Below, in pieces: positions 2 through 38,895 of a DNA stretch of 38,895 nt (positions within the stretch are counted from its first letter, which is position 1; every line of letters starts with the position of its first letter). The DNA is from a virus. The notes below the pieces were generated by a model. The model did no database searches, had not been told where the DNA came from, and was given only the letters and a program-made list of their open reading frames with translations. Both the position numbers and the translations under genes were made by a program. The stretch is from positions 1 through 38,895 of the IMG/VR virus record IMGVR_UViG_3300045999_007928. The stretch is one strand, 5' to 3'.

Positions 2-127
2 ACGCTCGGTACGCCAGTTCGTATGCCTCATGGCATCGGGTGCGTCGATCACCGCTCGGTCATCGAGACGCCTGTCGGCGTGTTCTTCAAGAGCGAGCGA
101 TCGATCGAGCTGCTTGCGCGCGACATG
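2..127. repeat. Terminal overlap, left copy (circular contig)
   Basis: Bases 2-127 are identical to 38770-38895; base 1 (g) differs from 38769 (c). Both copies lie in the same reading frame of one tail gene, which becomes a single uninterrupted open frame when the copies are merged. This is what a circular or circularly permuted assembly looks like. A physical direct terminal repeat is less likely, because it would cut a structural gene far from the terminase. Confidence 0.9.
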
Positions 128-15103: not shown

Positions 15104-15642
15104 AACGGAATCTCCTCGTTCGCGTCGTTCCAACCATCGTCGAGCGCAGCGCCGGGCGTATGAGCAGGGTCGCGGAGAATCTCAGCCCACCCCTTAGCAA
15201 GCGCAGCCGTGCGGAGGTTGTAGGTCACATACTTGCGCTTCTCAACGTCCGGGTCTTCGAGCGTCTTCTGGCCCTTCCACTCCTCGAAGTCAGCAACCAT
15301 GGTGAGGTATTCCGGCTCCGTGAGGCTCATGGGCATGCCGCTGTACGGCTTGCCCTTCCAGCGCGGGGGGTCGCGTCGCACAATCGGGTCGCCGGCCCAG
15401 TCGCCCTTCCCGCCGCCGCCAATCTTACGGCACTCGGTAGCGTTGGCTGCGCGAGCGCGCGGGATGCCGCGACCGTCGAAGTGGCTAAGCCACTGCATGG
15501 CCCACTTCGGGAGATCGGCAACCTGCGGCTGCGAGCCAGCGGAAGCCTTCGCCGACTTCTGCAACTGGTCGACGCGGTCCTGCAACTTCTTCAGTGCGGC
15601 TTCAAGGATAGAGATGCGGGTGTCGATTACTTCGTGGTCCAT
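15100..15642 (-). CDS. Protein with SSB-like acidic C-terminal tip
   Basis: A 180-aa protein from ATG 15642, overlapping the exonuclease by 16 bases. An N-terminal coiled coil (ISILEAALKKLQDRVDQLQ) is followed by a Gly/Trp-rich region (GGGGKGDWAGDP then PPRWKGKPYSG), then an acidic central helix. It ends in WNDANEEIPF. That last stretch is the acidic, Ile-Pro-Phe tip by which bacterial SSB recruits repair and replication proteins. The body does not show an obvious OB-fold, so it may be a divergent phage ssDNA-binding protein or one that borrows the tip to dock host SSB partners. It sits with the exonuclease, RecT and resolvase. Confidence 0.5.
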   Translation of the reverse strand: MDHEVIDTRISILEAALKKLQDRVDQLQKSAKASAGSQPQVADLPKWAMQWLSHFDGRGIPRARAANATECRKIGGGGKGDWAGDPIVRRDPPRWKGKPYSGMPMSLTEPEYLTMVADFEEWKGQKTLEDPDVEKRKYVTYNLRTAALAKGWAEILRDPAHTPGAALDDGWNDANEEIPF

Positions 15643-16703
15643 GTCTCAAACTCCGTTACGCGCAGCGCGCCCGCTGCAACCAGGTCTTGTTCTACTGCGG
15701 CCGCCTTTGCCCTGTCCTTGCCAGCGGCCTTCTTGATTGCGTTCCACGTTGTCGTGGGTTCGACGACGTGCGCCATGCCGTGCTTCTGGAGCACGTCAAG
15801 GCACTCGGGAGTCGCGTCGACCGTGCGCCGCGTCTGCTTCGACGGCGCGTAGCGTTGCCCCTCAGCCGTTGTAATCGGGCCGTGTTCGCGGACGTACGCC
15901 TTCAGGTTGGCCTCGATGAGCGCCGTTGCCTCCGTCGCGTAAGCGACGAACGCGTGGGCCTGCGCGGCCTCCTCGGCAGTCGTCACGGCGGTGGTGAGCT
16001 TGCGCAGGTCAAGCGCCACCGGAGCGGCCTTCGCGAGCGCCTGGTGCGTTCCGTCGTTCTTGGGGCACTGCATGCTGCCAGGACACCACTGGCACCATGC
16101 ACCGGGCGTCGGGAGAGCCTGCTCCTCACTGCGCCGGCTCATGGCCTGCAACATGGCTACGGAGTGTTCGTGCAGTGCGTCCGGGTTCAGCTCGCGCCGG
16201 ACCTCCACACCATCGGCGAGGAACGCGAGGATGACCGTGACGTGCGTGACACCGGGGTTGTTGAACCTTGCCAACCAGGCGTAGGTAGCAAGCTGCTCGT
16301 CGTAGCCGTCATGCATGCGGCCGGTCTTCCAGTCGATGACGATGGCGCGCGTACCGTCGGGGCTCACGAGGAGCACGTCGGCGTGACCAACGACCTCGTC
16401 TTCCCCGCTGATGCTGGTCCACTCCAGCGTCTGCTCAATGCTACGCGTCCAGCCCGGGTGCGCCTGCTCGATGTCAGCGAGGTACTCGATGCCAGCGCGG
16501 CACAGGTCCCACTCGCGGTCGGTGCGCGGGAGGTCGCCGTTGATCGGCACGCCGCACTTGGCGGCGATGCCGTTGTGGACGCGGGTTCCGGCCTGGGCCT
16601 CGGGGCCAGCCGGCGACTCGGGCCACTCCTGGGAGCTGAACCAGGTGCAGTTAATCCAGCGTTTTGTGCTGCTGGCACGAAGGATGGGGAGGTGGCGAAT
16701 CAT
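15627..16703 (-). CDS. PD-(D/E)XK exonuclease with iron-sulphur-type cysteines
   Basis: A 358-aa protein starting at ATG 16703, sharing one base with the previous stop (TAATG). It carries His43 (GTRVHNGI), Asp109 (EVVGHADVLLV), Asp124-x-Lys126 (AIVIDWKTG) and the Gln-x-x-x-Tyr helix (DEQLATYAW), the order found in RecB/Cas4-type nucleases. Cys19 plus the cluster C203-x2-C206-x5-C212 (WCQWCPGSMQC) match the four ligands of the 4Fe-4S cluster in AddB and Cas4. With the RecT-like annealase two genes upstream, it should resect double-stranded DNA ends to feed strand annealing. The C-terminal about 130 residues are helical and unassigned. Confidence 0.75.
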   Translation of the reverse strand: MIRHLPILRASSTKRWINCTWFSSQEWPESPAGPEAQAGTRVHNGIAAKCGVPINGDLPRTDREWDLCRAGIEYLADIEQAHPGWTRSIEQTLEWTSISGEDEVVGHADVLLVSPDGTRAIVIDWKTGRMHDGYDEQLATYAWLARFNNPGVTHVTVILAFLADGVEVRRELNPDALHEHSVAMLQAMSRRSEEQALPTPGAWCQWCPGSMQCPKNDGTHQALAKAAPVALDLRKLTTAVTTAEEAAQAHAFVAYATEATALIEANLKAYVREHGPITTAEGQRYAPSKQTRRTVDATPECLDVLQKHGMAHVVEPTTTWNAIKKAAGKDRAKAAAVEQDLVAAGALRVTEFETWTTK

Positions 16704-16954
16704 TAGTTCTTCTCCTTGTTACTGCTCGCTTCGAGAAGCGCGAGCGCGAGCATTCTCGTGGCCGCCATGCTCAGAGCGGCCACAAACAGCGGCTGATCCG
16801 GCCCGCAGGCAAGAACGAGCTGGGGCTCGTCATCGCCGTCGTCCTGAATGAGGTCAAAGAGAAGAAGCCCACACGCTTGCGCGTTTGGGTTCACATCGAT
16901 TTCCGCCAACGAGAACAGCGGAAGCTCAGCAATAGTGCTGCGGTCGACCTTCAC
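16703..16954 (-). CDS. Small acidic protein between annealase and exonuclease
   Basis: An 83-aa protein starting at GTG 16954 (GTGA overlap with the RecT-like gene) and sharing its stop with the exonuclease start. It is acidic in the middle (FDLIQDDGDDEPQLVLAC) and helical at the end (FVAALSMAATRMLALALLEA). It lacks a clear motif. Its position suggests a small accessory or modulator of the exonuclease-annealase pair, but nothing in the sequence shows this. Confidence 0.5.
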   Translation of the reverse strand: MKVDRSTIAELPLFSLAEIDVNPNAQACGLLLFDLIQDDGDDEPQLVLACGPDQPLFVAALSMAATRMLALALLEASSNKEKN

Positions 16955-17739
16955 TTCTCACCACCTTCCACCACGGCGGCCAGCGCAGCGGCTGCGTGGC
17001 TGGAGGCTTCGAGGAGTTCGCGTCTGGCGCGGTACGCGCCGCCAAGCCGGAGGTGCGTTTCCTTGGAAAGGGTGCATCCAGCCAGCTGCTTACCAATGGC
17101 CTGGAGCGCCTGCTCAGTTTTGCAAGCCTCGATGCTTTGAAGGACGCCCTCAACCGCCTCCGGGCTGAGGCTGTCCTTTACGGGCTCAGCTTCGAGCACG
17201 ACCGTCGCCGCCGCCTGCGGCTTCATCGGCGCCATCACGGGAGACGGCTCGAAGTCTTGGATTTCTTCTGGCGTATACACGCCAAGCACGCAGGCGGGGA
17301 AACACGTCCGCACGCCTTCACTGACGACCCGCGCCCAAAGCATGCGACGCGGGTACTTGCTCCACATCTGCTTGCCACCGAGGCCGGCCTGCTTTGCCGT
17401 CGCCATATCCCACTTGATGCGCACTTTGCTGCCCTTCGGATGGGCGAACGTCGCGTCGCACGTTGTGTCGGTGTACTCGTGCCACTCGACGGTGCCGCCG
17501 GCCTGCTGAAACCGAGCCAGCATGACCTCCGCCTTCATGGCGGGGCGCCCCTCGATGACATGGTAATCCCTGGCCGCAGCCATGGGGTGCAGGCCTTCTG
17601 ACTGCGCCAGCATCATCAGCGCGAGAGCCTGCTCGGGCGTTTTGGCTCCGAAGAGGCCGCTCTTCGCGATGCTTGTTGCCAGGCGCTCAACGTTCTCAAA
17701 CGTCAGTGCGACGGTGTTTACAGTTGCCAGGTTACTCAT
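16951..17739 (-). CDS. recT: RecT-family single-strand annealing protein
   Basis: A 262-aa protein starting at ATG 17739, six bases after GGAAGG. The core EQALALMMLAQSEGLHPMAA, then DYHVIEGRPAMKAEVMLARF, then WSKYPRRMLWARVVSEGVR is the recognisable RecT/Bet-type pattern (residues about 35-160): an AQ-x-G-L-x-P helix, a strand pair carrying G-RP-x-M, and the Met-Leu-x-AR helix. The C-terminal 90 residues are Ala/Glu-rich and helical. The protein anneals complementary single strands after exonuclease resection and may support host-dependent replication or genome circularisation. The start is earlier in an unbroken frame but without a ribosome site. Confidence 0.75.
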   Translation of the reverse strand: MSNLATVNTVALTFENVERLATSIAKSGLFGAKTPEQALALMMLAQSEGLHPMAAARDYHVIEGRPAMKAEVMLARFQQAGGTVEWHEYTDTTCDATFAHPKGSKVRIKWDMATAKQAGLGGKQMWSKYPRRMLWARVVSEGVRTCFPACVLGVYTPEEIQDFEPSPVMAPMKPQAAATVVLEAEPVKDSLSPEAVEGVLQSIEACKTEQALQAIGKQLAGCTLSKETHLRLGGAYRARRELLEASSHAAAALAAVVEGGEK

Positions 17740-18188
17740 TGCTTGCCTTCCAGTGCGGTGTTGAGAGCTTGCTGCTGGGCCTCGTCGGGGAGGCCGATGT
17801 GATGGCGGAGATACATGATGCGAGACCAGTACCGCGCCGCGTGGCGGATGTTGCGACGCTGCGCGATGACAGCGCCGCTCGCGATCAGCTCCGCGAGCGG
17901 GCACTTCCGCCGCTGGTTCGCCTTCGCGATGTTCTGCGCGAAGCGGGCGTAGCCCTTCGAGCGCAGGTGTTGACGGATTTCCTCCTTCGTCATGCCGGCC
18001 TCGGCCACGTCAAGCCGGTCTAGGATGAGGCGCTTGCCTTGCTCCCACTCGGCCTTGTCCATGGCGCGCAGTGGAACCGGGGCGGGGCGGATGCGCAGCC
18101 CGGCTTCCTCGCGCTTCACGAGGAGTTCAAGCAGCGCCACGATGCGCGCGCCGTAATGCTCGATGAGCATCTCAAGCTCGCGGCTCAT
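17736..18188 (-). CDS. Unknown helical protein with possible winged helix
   Basis: I use ATG 18188 (ATGA overlap), giving 150 aa; upstream frame has no start signal. The N-terminus is helical (ELEMLIEHYGARIVALLELL). A central stretch (GMTKEEIRQHLRSKGYARFA, residues about 88-107) looks like a helix-turn-helix, followed by a basic helix (QRRNIRHAARYWSRIMYL) that could read DNA. It directly precedes RecT. I recognise no family; DNA binding is a guess from this pattern. Confidence 0.5.
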   Translation of the reverse strand: MSRELEMLIEHYGARIVALLELLVKREEAGLRIRPAPVPLRAMDKAEWEQGKRLILDRLDVAEAGMTKEEIRQHLRSKGYARFAQNIAKANQRRKCPLAELIASGAVIAQRRNIRHAARYWSRIMYLRHHIGLPDEAQQQALNTALEGKQ

Positions 18189-18814
18189 TTGACGAGCCTC
18201 GCGCGGTGCCAGTTCTTCAGAAAGCCGCGGTCGACAAGGCCGCGGATCTTCCGCTGAAATTCGACGCACACCGCGGGCGCCTCGACACCCTCGTCGCACA
18301 CCACCATCATGGTCGCCTCCGCACCAGGCAGGATGAAGTACAGCGTGACCGGCTCCGTTGGAAGGTCACCGCCGAGCGCCTGCGTGATGAGTGCGAGCGG
18401 GGGCATGTTGTAAAAGCACCTGAACGGGCCGTGCGAGACGGCACCAAGCGCCGCGTCCATGCGCCGCAACTGCGCGTCCGTCATCGACGCCCAGTGCTCG
18501 ACGCGAAGAATGATGCATGGTTGGTTCAGCTCGTTGAGCAGGGCGCGCAGCGACCCACCGTTGCCGCGCTTGTCCTTAAATTTGATGGAAAGGGCGTCCC
18601 GTCCGAGAACCCAGTCCATCCCGCGCGGCGTGTGCCGCAGCTTGACGGCCGTGTCGTCGACACTCGGCTTGCGCGTCGACGCCCCAGTGCGAGCGTAGAA
18701 CGCGGCAAGCCGCCAGTTCCACGGCACGCCTTTTGGTGCTGCCGCGGCCCACTGCTGCTGGAACGCGCGGCCGAGCCTGAGCGCGATGGTGCCAACGTCA
18801 TCAGGGCTGATCAT
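18185..18814 (-). CDS. Unknown protein, second gene of recombination operon
   Basis: A 209-aa protein from ATG 18814 with GGAGG four bases upstream. It is mixed alpha/beta with conserved-looking blocks (MDWVLGRDALSIKFKDKRGN, then QPCIILRVEHWASMTDAQL, then PVTLYFILPGAEATMMVVC). The last part is basic (RKIRGLVDRGFLKNWHRARL). No nuclease or ATP-binding motif is clear. The operon position suggests DNA metabolism or host takeover, but the family is not recognised. Confidence 0.5.
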   Translation of the reverse strand: MISPDDVGTIALRLGRAFQQQWAAAAPKGVPWNWRLAAFYARTGASTRKPSVDDTAVKLRHTPRGMDWVLGRDALSIKFKDKRGNGGSLRALLNELNQPCIILRVEHWASMTDAQLRRMDAALGAVSHGPFRCFYNMPPLALITQALGGDLPTEPVTLYFILPGAEATMMVVCDEGVEAPAVCVEFQRKIRGLVDRGFLKNWHRARLVK

Positions 18815-19037
18815 TGCGCCTCCGCTGCGAGAGCTTGAGTTCGAGCGCCGCCAGAATCTGCGTGGCGTTGCCGAGCGCGCTGGAGATCAGCGCGAAGTCG
18901 TAACCCGCCATGTAGTGCTCGCCCCCGCACTCTTCGGTGTACTCGCGAGCCGTCTCGCCAACATGCCCCCGAAGTTCCGTCAACTCACCCACCATAGCCG
19001 CTAGGCGCGCGGCCATGGCTTGTGTCTTCTGTCCCAT
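18801..19037 (-). CDS. Small coiled-coil protein, first gene of recombination operon
   Basis: A 78-aa protein from ATG 19037 with AGAGG five bases upstream; it overlaps the next gene by 14 bases. It is largely one helix (MAARLAAMVGELTELRGHV) with a Cys/His/Tyr middle (EECGGEHYMAGYDF) and a basic C-terminus (LKLSQRRRNDQP). It is the promoter-proximal gene behind the divergent palindromic promoter, about 30 bases from the predicted minus-strand transcript start. Function unknown. Confidence 0.55.
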   Translation of the reverse strand: MGQKTQAMAARLAAMVGELTELRGHVGETAREYTEECGGEHYMAGYDFALISSALGNATQILAALELKLSQRRRNDQP

Positions 19038-19069
19038 CTTTGCCTCTCAATCGCTGCGCTGTGCAGCAG

Positions 19070-19097
19070 TTGACAGGCTAGTGTGTGAGGCTAGAAT
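19070..19097 (+). promoter_or_regulatory. Sigma-70-type promoter for the winged-helix gene
   Basis: TTGACA (19070-19075), a 16-base spacer and TAGAAT (19092-19097) give a strong host-type promoter, predicting a start near 19104 and a 5' leader of about 50 bases before ATG 19153. Direct repeats GGCTAG at 19076 and 19089 lie in the spacer. Confidence 0.75.
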
Positions 19098-19102
19098 GTC
19101 AA
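19070..19102. promoter_or_regulatory. Palindromic face-to-face promoter/operator
   Basis: The 33 bases have dyad form TTGACA-N2-CTAG-N9-CTAG-N2-TGTCAA, perfect in both arms. Each outer hexamer is a consensus -35 box facing inward: on the minus strand TTGACA (19102-19097) is followed after 16 bases by TAGCCT (19080-19075). A dimeric regulator binding here would cover both promoters, which transcribe away from each other into 19153 and 19037. Confidence 0.65.
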
Positions 19103-19152: not shown

Positions 19153-19461
19153 ATGGGAAAGAGGCCACTGAGCACGGATGACCCGTGCAGCCAGGACGCT
19201 GCGCAGCGCGTGAAGCCGCATATCGAGCCCATCAAGGCTCAGGTGCTCAAGTTCATCGCGGCCAACCCCGGCCGCACTTGCGAGGACGCGACGCACGCGT
19301 TGGCCCTAAAACACCAGACCGCGAGCGCGAGGTTCAACGACCTCGTTGCAGAAGGCAAGCTGGAGTTCGAGGTGCGTCGCGGCGAGGACGGGCGCATGCT
19401 GCGCCACTATCGCGTGCCGGACGACCCGCGACAGCTCAAGCTATTCGGAGGCGGGCAATGA
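19153..19461 (+). CDS. Winged-helix transcription regulator candidate
   Basis: A 102-aa protein with AAGGGAG before ATG 19153. The middle (IKAQVLKFIAANPGRTCEDA, then THALALKHQTASARFNDLVA) has helix, turn and recognition helix of a winged helix (residues about 30-70). The wing is EGKLEFEVRRGEDGRMLRHY, and the C-terminus is PDDPRQLKLFGGGQ. The layout matches MarR/PadR-like small regulators and phage early repressors. It is divergent from the recombination operon across a palindromic promoter, so it is the natural candidate to bind there and control itself and that operon. No enzymatic or ligand domain is present. Confidence 0.6.
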   Translation: MGKRPLSTDDPCSQDAAQRVKPHIEPIKAQVLKFIAANPGRTCEDATHALALKHQTASARFNDLVAEGKLEFEVRRGEDGRMLRHYRVPDDPRQLKLFGGGQ

Positions 19462-34762: not shown

Positions 34763-37700
34763 TGCCGACTCGTGACCAAGTTCTTCAGGTTCCATTTGTC
34801 GGCGGCATCGACGAGTATGCAGACCCGGACCAGCTTCAGCCTCCCGCAATGGCCTCGCTGGAGAACGCTGTTGTGCGAAAGACGGGCCGCGTCGAGAAGC
34901 GCGAAGGCTTCGAGTACATTCAGAAGGATGGTGTGCCGGGAACGCCAGCTCAGACGTTTGCCGGCACTCCGTTGCCATTCGTACAGGAATGCCTTGGCTC
35001 GCACAGTGGCCGCGACGGATCCAAGCTCCTGCTCGCGGCTGGCGACACGCTGTTTGAGTATGTTGGCTCAGACGCCGATCACGGCTACCGGGTCGTAAAC
35101 AAGCTGCCGTCGTGCTATGGGACGCTGCACTCGGTAGACTCGACCGGCGGCGAGGTGACCGAAGTCGAGTCGATGCTCAATGACTCGGGCACACTGCGTT
35201 GTACGGTCTGGGTCTTGGGCTTCCGCAACGGCCAGGAGTTGACCAACGACAAGGCGATCTCGACGCAGCCGAATGGAACGCATGGCGTGTATGCGGCCGT
35301 GCAGCGCGTCTCTGACGGGGCGTTCGTTACGGCTCCTGTGAGAATCAAGGACTCGTTCGGCGCTGACACGACGCGGTGCAGCGACCTGCGCATGACCATG
35401 TCGAGGGGCTCTTCGGGAAACGATCGGCACTGGGTTGTAGCATTCCGCAGAGACTACGCGGTTATCGAGGCGTTCGCGGTCATCTCAACGGACGGCGCAA
35501 TCAAGACGACAGACAGGATTGACCCGGCTTTCACTGGGCGACCGTATTGGCGGGCATTTGACATCGCCGGAGTCTATAACGAGCAACACCTGCTCTTCGC
35601 CAGGTGCGAGAACGATACGTCGCCAGCGTCGCCAGATGTGCTGCTAAAGCTGCTTTCGTTCGATGTTACAACTGGAGCCTTCTCGGTCGTACACACCTAC
35701 GCCGGCGGTGTTCTGAGTGCCTCGAACGCGTACGGGTCAACGACGTACAGCGTTCATGACTGGAACCGGCGCACGCCTCGCGGGGTCGTACTTGAGAGCA
35801 ACCCCATCACGTCGACTGTAGCCATCTCTGTGCGGACTGTTCACGAGATGGATGTCTCGCCGTTCTATCTTGACGGCAAGTTTGTTGTAACGCGAGCGAA
35901 CTGCTCGGGCTCTACGATCTCGATCACGTCAGACGACTTTGCGTGGCTGCATCGGGCCGGCTTCCAGACCGAAGACAACTTCGGCTCGTTCTCCACCGGG
36001 ACGGGGTACCAGCTGAAGTACAGCGCGAGCGCGAGCGCGAGTCCTTACCAGCTTGCTCCGACCAACTACAACGCGCTCCTCAGCTCAAGCCGAGCGATTT
36101 TGACAGCGGAGTTCGCGGACGGGTCCGTTCAGCCGTACCTGCTTTCTCGTCTGTCGCAGGGAACCGCGTTCGCGCTGTATCAAAACCCGATCGTCTACAC
36201 CGGCACGCAGAGCAATTCTGTCGTGACCTCGTACCCGCGCGCCCTGCACCTATACCCGTCAGACAACTCCGTCTCGGTAACGGTGCCCAACAGCATCGTG
36301 ACCACTTCGGTGGATGCCGCGTCGGTTGATCAGCGAAACGTGACGCGGGTGCAGCTCGGCGGGGCCCCCGGCGTAGTGGGCTTCCCAAACAGCGTGCGAT
36401 TCTGCCGCCTGTCAACGGGCGCCGGCCCTCGGTGCCTTGCCGTCGTGGTGTTCGATGGGTTTGGGATTCCGCAAGCCGTAGAGGTTTACGATGGTCGCGG
36501 GGCCGGCAACGCCTACGGCGTGCCCGCGCTTGTCGACATCACGCAGATTGAGACGCGCGCCAACGCCTATATTGGACCGTGGGGAGCCCCAGTAGTGGTG
36601 CCGGCAAACACGATTCAGGTGTACGACGATTTCAACGCGCCGCTCCCGATTCTGATGACCGACATCATGTTCGAGGACATCGGTCTTAACTCTACCACTA
36701 CCGCGCAGGTGGTGGTGGAGACCAGCGTCGGAGTCGAGCAGTGCGTTCACCGATGGGACGTGGTGAACACCGGCCAGTCCATCATCCTGGCGGTGTCGTC
36801 TGTGTCGGCAGCCCCTTTCAGCGGCCCAAACGGAGACGCGCCTCTGGGGTATGTGAGCCCATTCGCCCGTAGCAACTACTTCGAGGTGTACCCGTGGACG
36901 CCGGTGTCGCAGACGCGGTGGGACCTGAACGACTATGCGACCGTTGGATCGTCAACGTCCAGGCCGATCTGGTGCGCGCTTGGCGGTCCATGGAGGATGA
37001 CCAGCGGGCTTGTGAAGCTGTCTACCGGGCGCTACGGATGCGTGCTCTCGCCGGCCGGAGACGACTTCCAGCAAAGTGCGTTCTTCGTCTCGTTCACCAA
37101 CGGCGAGGCTTTCGTCAAGACAGACCTGGACCCGGATCTGGTTCCGATCCCGTATTCGGGCGGGGTGACGTACGAGAACAACAAGGGCGTGTTCGTTGAG
37201 TCGATGAACATGCCGCGCACAGCAGCAGTCCCACTCAACTGCCCTCGATTCAGTTCGGCCGGGACTCTGCTTTCTGTTGGGGCCATCCGCAGGGGGCAGA
37301 GTGAAGGCGGAAGCTCGGTCTTCGCGCTGGACTACTCGTTTGAGCCGCAAGGGTGGCGGCAGATGAAGCAGTGGGGTGATTACACCATCATCAACGGCGG
37401 GATTCCAAGCTCGTTCGACGGTTCGTCGTGCAGCGAGGCCTCGATGCTTCTATGGCCGCAGAGAGACCTAACGAGCATCGCATACGACCCGTCGTCGCAA
37501 CTCTTGTTCAGCACGCAGACGACGACCCCGTACGCACTTGATGTCAAGGTGTCTGCGTACATCTTGGTTGGCTACCAGGGGCCGTACCTGGCGAACATCA
37601 AGCGTCCGTGGTTCGCGTACGAGGCCGGCTTCAAAAACAAGAACGAGTACAACAACGACACCAACCAGGTCGTTGACATGCACTGGTCGCGCATCACGAC

Positions 37701-38895
37701 CGAGTGGGGCGGGGACCCGACCAAGGACTACCAGTCTGTATACGCCGACCCTCGGCTTATGCAGGTGAGTGGCAGCCGGTACAACAGCGGCGCGGGCATC
37801 AACCAGCTTGGTTCCGACCATTACTATGGCAGGTATCAGTCTGGATACAGTGTTACGCAGTCGCTCATTGGTGATCCGACAAAACTCGTCATCTGGGCAC
37901 CTCGAACCGCGCCGGGAGATACGAGCGTACTCAACAACGTGTACAACCCGCTTGTGGCCAACGGCGACTTCTTGGCGCGGTGGTGCTACGAGGCGGTCGA
38001 CGGGACGGGGCGAGTTGCCAGGAGTGCTCCGAGTCAGGCGGTAACGTTCTCAATCTGCTCGTTGGTCCGCTTCACGGAGCGCACGTTCGGAAGCACGGTG
38101 ATCGTGAACCCGGAGGTCACGGTCGACGGCTACCGGTACGGCTTCTTCGTCCCGCGCATGGAGCTAACGAACCGCCTGAAGACTGCGGACAGCGACTCTC
38201 GTCGTGTCGTGGTTCAGCCGTATTTCACGGCAGAGCCGTTTGCCACCGTGTTCTACAAGGTGCCGTTCTCGAACTTCCTGCGCGAGTACAGCAACGACTT
38301 CACTGTTGGCCGCAACGCAACGCGTGGAGTCGTCCCGTACTCGTCGGCCAACGCCGGCGGGCCGAGCGATAACCCATATGGTCTTGTCACGAGCAACTTC
38401 GGTTGCTTCGACGGCCCCCAGGGCGACTACAACGGCCTTTTGTCGCAGCCGGTGCTCTACACCGTCGGCGGCGGCCTCGACAACGTGGCACCCCCTTCTG
38501 CGCTCTGCATGACGGTGCATCAGAACCGACTCGTCCTGGGTGGAGCGGACGACGCGACGGTCGTCTGGTTCAGCAAGGAGCTGTCTCCGACTGATGCGCC
38601 CGGGTTCAACGACGCCCTCACCATTCAGATTGAGGACGGTGGAGCGGTCACGGGGCTCGCGTCGCTCGAATCGCTGCTCATCATCTTCAAGCGCGGCATG
38701 ACGTGGCTCGTGCCTGGCGACATGCCGGACGACACGGGAAGCGCCATCAACCGTGGCTACATCTCGAACACGCTCGGTACGCCAGTTCGTATGCCTCATG
38801 GCATCGGGTGCGTCGATCACCGCTCGGTCATCGAGACGCCTGTCGGCGTGTTCTTCAAGAGCGAGCGATCGATCGAGCTGCTTGCGCGCGACATG
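34762..38895 (+). CDS. Tail nozzle-like protein, N-terminal part (continues at 2-913)
   Basis: From ATG 34762 the frame is open to the right edge and continues in the same phase at the left edge (128-913), giving about 1639 aa, roughly twice T7 gp12 (about 794 aa). The start QVPFVGGIDEYADPDQL, then ASLENAVVRKTGRVEKREGF, is the family's opening, and the last 250 residues have NRLVLGGADDATVVWFSKEL and LLIIFKRGMTWLVPGD, the repeated blade-type pattern. The middle (residues about 200-1150) is long and Ser/Thr/Val-rich, likely beta domains inserted in the propeller. A Ser-Ala repeat is near residue 422. Nozzle proteins close the DNA channel at the tail tip. Confidence 0.8.
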   Translation, partial: MPTRDQVLQVPFVGGIDEYADPDQLQPPAMASLENAVVRKTGRVEKREGFEYIQKDGVPGTPAQTFAGTPLPFVQECLGSHSGRDGSKLLLAAGDTLFEYVGSDADHGYRVVNKLPSCYGTLHSVDSTGGEVTEVESMLNDSGTLRCTVWVLGFRNGQELTNDKAISTQPNGTHGVYAAVQRVSDGAFVTAPVRIKDSFGADTTRCSDLRMTMSRGSSGNDRHWVVAFRRDYAVIEAFAVISTDGAIKTTDRIDPAFTGRPYWRAFDIAGVYNEQHLLFARCENDTSPASPDVLLKLLSFDVTTGAFSVVHTYAGGVLSASNAYGSTTYSVHDWNRRTPRGVVLESNPITSTVAISVRTVHEMDVSPFYLDGKFVVTRANCSGSTISITSDDFAWLHRAGFQTEDNFGSFSTGTGYQLKYSASASASPYQLAPTNYNALLSSSRAILTAEFADGSVQPYLLSRLSQGTAFALYQNPIVYTGTQSNSVVTSYPRALHLYPSDNSVSVTVPNSIVTTSVDAASVDQRNVTRVQLGGAPGVVGFPNSVRFCRLSTGAGPRCLAVVVFDGFGIPQAVEVYDGRGAGNAYGVPALVDITQIETRANAYIGPWGAPVVVPANTIQVYDDFNAPLPILMTDIMFEDIGLNSTTTAQVVVETSVGVEQCVHRWDVVNTGQSIILAVSSVSAAPFSGPNGDAPLGYVSPFARSNYFEVYPWTPVSQTRWDLNDYATVGSSTSRPIWCALGGPWRMTSGLVKLSTGRYGCVLSPAGDDFQQSAFFVSFTNGEAFVKTDLDPDLVPIPYSGGVTYENNKGVFVESMNMPRTAAVPLNCPRFSSAGTLLSVGAIRRGQSEGGSSVFALDYSFEPQGWRQMKQWGDYTIINGGIPSSFDGSSCSEASMLLWPQRDLTSIAYDPSSQLLFSTQTTTPYALDVKVSAYILVGYQGPYLANIKRPWFAYEAGFKNKNEYNNDTNQVVDMHWSRITTEWGGDPTKDYQSVYADPRLMQVSGSRYNSGAGINQLGSDHYYGRYQSGYSVTQSLIGDPTKLVIWAPRTAPGDTSVLNNVYNPLVANGDFLARWCYEAVDGTGRVARSAPSQAVTFSICSLVRFTERTFGSTVIVNPEVTVDGYRYGFFVPRMELTNRLKTADSDSRRVVVQPYFTAEPFATVFYKVPFSNFLREYSNDFTVGRNATRGVVPYSSANAGGPSDNPYGLVTSNFGCFDGPQGDYNGLLSQPVLYTVGGGLDNVAPPSALCMTVHQNRLVLGGADDATVVWFSKELSPTDAPGFNDALTIQIEDGGAVTGLASLESLLIIFKRGMTWLVPGDMPDDTGSAINRGYISNTLGTPVRMPHGIGCVDHRSVIETPVGVFFKSERSIELLARDM
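36022..36039 (+). repeat. AGCGCG hexanucleotide repeat in nozzle gene
   Basis: Three AGCGCG units encode Ser-Ala-Ser-Ala-Ser-Ala between two YQL motifs. It is an in-frame repeat that can vary in steps of two residues. Confidence 0.7.
38770..38895. repeat. Terminal overlap, right copy
   Basis: Identical to bases 2-127. Merging the two copies closes the circle and restores a single open frame for the nozzle-like gene. Confidence 0.9.

Follow-up and report, generated by a model that had tools for sequence, protein, structure and literature searches.

A probable interlocked pair of divergent promoters between a winged-helix gene and a recombination operon in a viral genome, with similar sites in other phages

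The locus and its genes

The window, meaning the whole stretch of DNA that was analysed, is an IMG/VR virus record of 38,895 bases with a G+C content of 64%. Two operons point away from each other across a gap of 115 bp, the leftward one holding genes for a RecT-like annealing protein and an exonuclease and the rightward one opening with a gene for a small winged-helix protein (Table 1); Shine-Dalgarno-like sequences precede both first genes. No annotated phage was found close to the window by DNA, and the searched parts of the window yielded neither a CI-type repressor nor an integrase. Positions 35400-38160, towards the record's right end, hold few convincing coding frames.

The 102-aa product of the rightward gene matches phrog_1324 (“transcriptional activator”), and its score of 24.9 bits against Pfam MarR_2 falls short of the curated cut-off of 27. 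A fold search with a modest AlphaFold model built from four sequences (pLDDT 75) showed a resemblance, at low identity, to winged-helix proteins, MarR/MexR among them. The protein recurs at 65-75% identity in three other viral contigs (L003, L004 and L005), all of which keep the same divergent operons. An alignment search of viral contigs for further relatives gave only these three loci, a search of genome contigs gave one weak match (31%), and no homologues were found among annotated phages.

Table 1. Genes and predicted elements around the divergent gap (window coordinates)
Feature	Position	Strand	Remarks
PD-(D/E)XK / DUF2800 exonuclease	15627..16703	-	Leftward operon
RecT-like single-strand annealing protein	16951..17739	-	Leftward operon
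209-aa protein	18185..18814	-	Second gene of leftward operon; homologues at the same place in L003, L004, L005
78-aa protein	18801..19037	-	First gene of leftward operon; GAGAGG ahead of ATG; 76-aa gene at the same position in L005
Plus-strand promoter (predicted)	19070..19097	+	TTGACA 19070-19075, 16-bp spacer, TAGAAT 19092-19097; start expected ~19104
Direct repeat AGGCTAG-N6-AGGCTAG	19075..19094	.	13-bp period, copies at 19075 and 19088; inside shared core
Minus-strand promoter (predicted)	19076..19102	-	TTGACA 19102-19097, 16-bp spacer, TAGCCT 19081-19076; start expected 19068-19069
102-aa winged-helix (MarR-like) protein	19153..19461	+	First gene of rightward operon; phrog_1324, MarR_2 below cut-off

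Anatomy of the 33-bp element

The sequence at 19070-19102 is TTGACAGGCTAGTGTGTGAGGCTAGAATGTCAA. As an earlier note on this DNA had recognised, each strand carries TTGACA followed after 16 bases by a -10-like box, TAGAAT on the plus strand and TAGCCT on the minus strand. The -10 of each promoter abuts the -35 of the other, the two having a single base pair in common, namely the last of the -10. The same note had described a perfect dyad with inward-facing promoters; the arms, TTGACAGGCTAG and CTAGAATGTCAA, are complementary at only 10 of 12 positions (83%), and the promoters, as predicted, overlap but would fire outward, i.e., they are divergent.

In the whole 38.9-kb window, on both strands, these two sites are the only matches to TTGACN-N15..19-TANNNT, and both lie inside the gap between the divergent genes. 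A first-order Markov simulation with the window's composition predicts 0.16 sites of the form TTGACA-15..19-TANNNT per window, both strands counted, and 0.004 of the paired form TTGACA-N16..24-TGTCAA, which is what is observed here. Measured against a sigma70-type consensus, which may not be that of the host, the rightward promoter matches at 11 of 12 positions and the leftward one at 9 of 12, the leftward -10 being weak, with three mismatches to TATAAT. The outer arms show dyad symmetry because each strand has a consensus -35 set at a fixed spacer, and the CTAG tetramers, which are scarce in the window (17 seen against 33 expected), arise from the C that precedes the TAG of each -10 box. The direct repeat within the shared core, which the earlier note passes over, is a possible candidate for a second-layer operator.

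Both promoters thus have their -35 and -10 boxes on the same DNA, on opposite strands and with spacers within 16-18 bp, and the element sits between divergent transcription units, as is the case in overlapping divergent promoters. We regard it as probable that 19070-19102 is an interlocked divergent pair of sigma70-type promoters for the host's housekeeping RNA polymerase, of the kind formed by Pc and Pr of pLS20.

Conservation in the related loci

At the same syntenic spot in L005 lies TTGACAAGCTACTGTGTGAAGCTAGAATGTCAA, which is identical to the window's element at 30 of 33 positions, while its flanks are identical at 15/32 and 22/48 aligned positions (~46%). None of the three changes alters a -35 box or TAGAAT; they convert TAGCCT to TAGCTT, which is still TANNNT, so that the minus strand reads TTGACA-16-TAGCTT, and destroy the left CTAG. 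Extra small genes (L005 4575-4997) stand between the promoter pair and the winged-helix gene, which is therefore not the first in its operon there.

In L003 and L004 the 33-mer dyad is absent. Instead, TGTCAA-N6-TTGACG marks back-to-back promoters that do not overlap, and TTGACA-16-TATGCT reads the recombination operon; the overlap is therefore not required for these operons. Their winged-helix protein is 73% identical to that of the window, and all four proteins have the same HTH region, HQTASARFNDLVAEG, yet the longest word common to the four intergenic regions is GTTGACA, so that what is conserved is the promoters, and neither the overlap nor the CTAG dyad holds for the family as a whole. 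Among RecT relatives more widely, a near-consensus promoter upstream of recT is found in many.

The L005 substitutions also bear on a variant of the promoter-pair reading, in which a separate direct-repeat operator, TAGCYT-N7-TAGCYT, would let the winged-helix protein or another phage protein select the direction of transcription. In its favour, two of the three substitutions that separate L005 from the window turn G into A at corresponding sites in the two repeat copies, 13 bp apart, and TGTGTGA in the centre is unaltered; but this is a single pair of genomes, the chance of the coincidence is ~2% by rough estimate, and the third change breaks the repeat, so that we hold this variant to be rather unlikely. 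It is quite unlikely, too, that one promoter alone is active and that the opposite TTGACA is coincidental or a source of antisense noise. The poor leftward -10 would be in keeping with such an arrangement, as would the non-coding RNA that bidirectional promoters often make on one side (PMC10268837). Against it, L005 retains the -35 box and the TANNNT box of each promoter, the paired arms are very rarely expected by chance, and the leftward operon would be left without a recognisable promoter here.

Recurrence in other viral genomes

A generalised motif, TTGACANNNTA-N{5,20}-TANNNTGTCAA, was scanned in IMG/VR and found at no fewer than 120 loci; the one-base-overlap register was set by the scan pattern, other registers lying outside the survey, and the test set includes a second, CTAG-restricted scan and the window itself. 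Among the matches listed, spacers of 16, 17 and 18 bp occurred 11, 82 and 5 times, together 98 of 121 sites, with 1-5 sites at each of the other lengths seen, whereas a control palindrome with reversed arms showed no such peak (2, 3 and 11 of 121, again among the matches listed). Two pelagiphage-like groups dominate, with 46 and 27 loci (73 of the 121 sites among the matches listed), and for a flanking gene of each the best match among annotated phages is in Pelagibacter phage HTVC027P or a relative of it. The contexts were dereplicated by their flanking proteins; among the matches listed, 22 of 47 contexts then fell at spacers of 16-18 bp, against 11 of 74 in the control (Fisher p=3e-4), and 25 against 63 at other spacers. 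Genes started on both sides, divergently, in 17 of the 22 contexts and in 10 of the 74 of the control (p=4e-8; among the matches listed). Outside the window, the strict CTAG version of the motif was found in a single viral contig, L002, where the spacers are 18 bp long, and the exact core of the window's site is carried by only 2 phages.

The exact TTGACA arms are not kept at the sites of the cultured pelagiphages HTVC027P and HTVC023P. HTVC027P has a weaker version, TTGATTTATAGATTAAGTTGTATTAAATATCAA, between gp31 and gp30 (L322, ~1302-1334), where both arms are TTGAT rather than TTGAC; this site adjoins the gene for the terminase small subunit, and its IMG/VR kin have TTGACA and TGTCAA as arms. 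One contig, L179, has two interlocked pairs, at 1705 and 4154, in different gene gaps, from which it follows that such phages may employ the module more than once. In a related group (L191, L192, L198 and L201) TTGACA-N-TGTCAA with 20-bp spacers lies between two conserved divergent genes (~92 and ~125 aa); this sequence is perhaps a real operator, being outside the promoter range in this register.

The genes that flank the recurrent sites include several regulators. P22_Cro, above the Pfam cut-off, faces AAA_24 in L190; HTH_3, likewise above the cut-off, faces DUF669 in L186 (of the L086 group) and stands on one side in L085, as does AlpA, also above it, in L152. HTH matches in the window, L002, L109, L128 and L188 remain below the Pfam cut-off. 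One side is occupied by a DEAD/ResIII helicase in L171 and by a DUF3799 nuclease in L073. Homologous YdaS/Cro-like genes are found in L103, L180 and L148 (above the cut-off for the L103 and L148 proteins that were scanned, by homology for L180), with a DUF2800 exonuclease opposite in L103 and L180. These three loci have spacers of 16, 17 and 18 bp, respectively, and keep both promoters, while the arms stand 21, 22 and 23 bp apart. The arms therefore shift by up to 2 bp while neither promoter leaves its working range, behaviour that suits promoters more than an operator of rigid spacing.

This spacing matters for the remaining alternative, that the dyad is primarily the operator of the 102-aa winged-helix protein, which would bind the TTGACA arms, CTAG or both and repress the two operons, the likeness to promoters being secondary. 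A protein with a MarR-like fold is encoded beside the dyad, and proteins of the MarR family commonly recognise dyads within the promoters of their own genes; but with an identical HTH L003 and L004 have no dyad and share nothing longer than GTTGACA, one CTAG half is lost in L005, and the rigid arm spacing of an operator is not seen in the other contexts, so that we find it improbable and have rejected it as the main reading. The CTAG half-sites, to which the earlier note had assigned the binding of a single dimer, do not hold up as the key element on these same grounds, and the C before the TAG of each -10 accounts for them. What that note had proposed about two promoters sharing their DNA is well supported by the interlocked pair, which is placed where it would serve the winged-helix gene on one side and the recombination operon on the other, is kept in L005 and recurs in unrelated phages with the spacing proper to promoters.

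Comparison with known systems

Several of the recurrent cases have a Cro- or CI-type gene on one side, and in this, as in the divergence of early and regulator promoters, they are like the lambdoid PRM/PR and CI/Cro switches. PRM and PR are arranged back-to-back and are not interlocked. The lambdoid arrangement therefore resembles L003 and L004 rather than the interlocked pair of the window.

The nearest characterised case is Pc/Pr of pLS20, the conjugation switch in Bacillus subtilis, where two divergent sigmaA-type promoters overlap (PMC4207663). There, too, in the reading favoured for pLS20, the -10 and -35 of each promoter lie on the -35 and -10 of its partner (PMC4207663), a strong promoter is paired with a weak one, and a regulator gene lies on one side with a large operon on the other. 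The differences are that pLS20 is a plasmid, that its regulator RcoLS20 has mapped operators and acts with DNA looping, and that Pr is far from consensus, whereas the window's site has two perfect -35 boxes and is not known to involve an operator or a loop.

A further likeness is to the bidirectional promoters of Warman, Grainger and colleagues (Nat Microbiol 2021), which, as described in PMC10268837 and PMC12825309, consist of symmetric DNA that polymerase can bind in either orientation, with potential for competition. In those descriptions they share a near-symmetric -10 and have starts 7-25 bp apart, usually 18; the window differs in having two complete interlocked -35/-10 promoters with separate -10 boxes and predicted starts ~36 bp apart, and so falls outside that class. 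In five E. coli bidirectional promoters that were tested, basal transcription was too low for competition, and RNA polymerases competed only on strong activation of one direction (PMC12825309). Those five differ in geometry from the window's pair, where the near-consensus -35 boxes could make competition likelier. Nothing direct on the same geometry in phages was found in the literature searched, which had most subscription journals outside its reach; as far as the searchable literature shows, two things are new here, namely that the arrangement recurs in phages and that it takes a symmetric, near-consensus form.

A possible either/or switch

From the anatomy, conservation, spacing and gene context described above, we infer the activity of the promoters, their exclusion, the direction of the bias and a regulator, as follows. 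The host's sigma70-type polymerase would use both promoters, rightward transcription leading into the winged-helix operon and leftward transcription into the RecT/exonuclease operon. Because both promoters lie on the same 33 bp, their occupancy would be mutually exclusive, two polymerases hardly being able to bind together. The rightward promoter would probably outcompete the leftward one unless a regulator or changing availability of polymerase tips the balance, and the leftward promoter, being weaker, would come into play chiefly while its rightward partner is blocked or titrated. The outcome may be a compact either/or control of early genes that a regulator can tip. More tentatively, TTGACANNNTA-N11..13-TANNNTGTCAA might have evolved in phages repeatedly and independently, as an either/or switch of early genes that is decided by two polymerases competing for one site and only tipped by a small HTH protein; this wider proposal we consider possible, though doubtful.

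Overlapping divergent promoters have so far been known one at a time. The peak at spacings of 16-18 in many phages that are not related to one another, in which a regulator gene repeatedly stands opposite a gene for recombination or replication, points to a minimal switch that lends itself to reuse and is recognisable from the sequence by itself, and raises the question of whether polymerase exclusion between two near-consensus promoters can decide early phage expression without a strong repressor.
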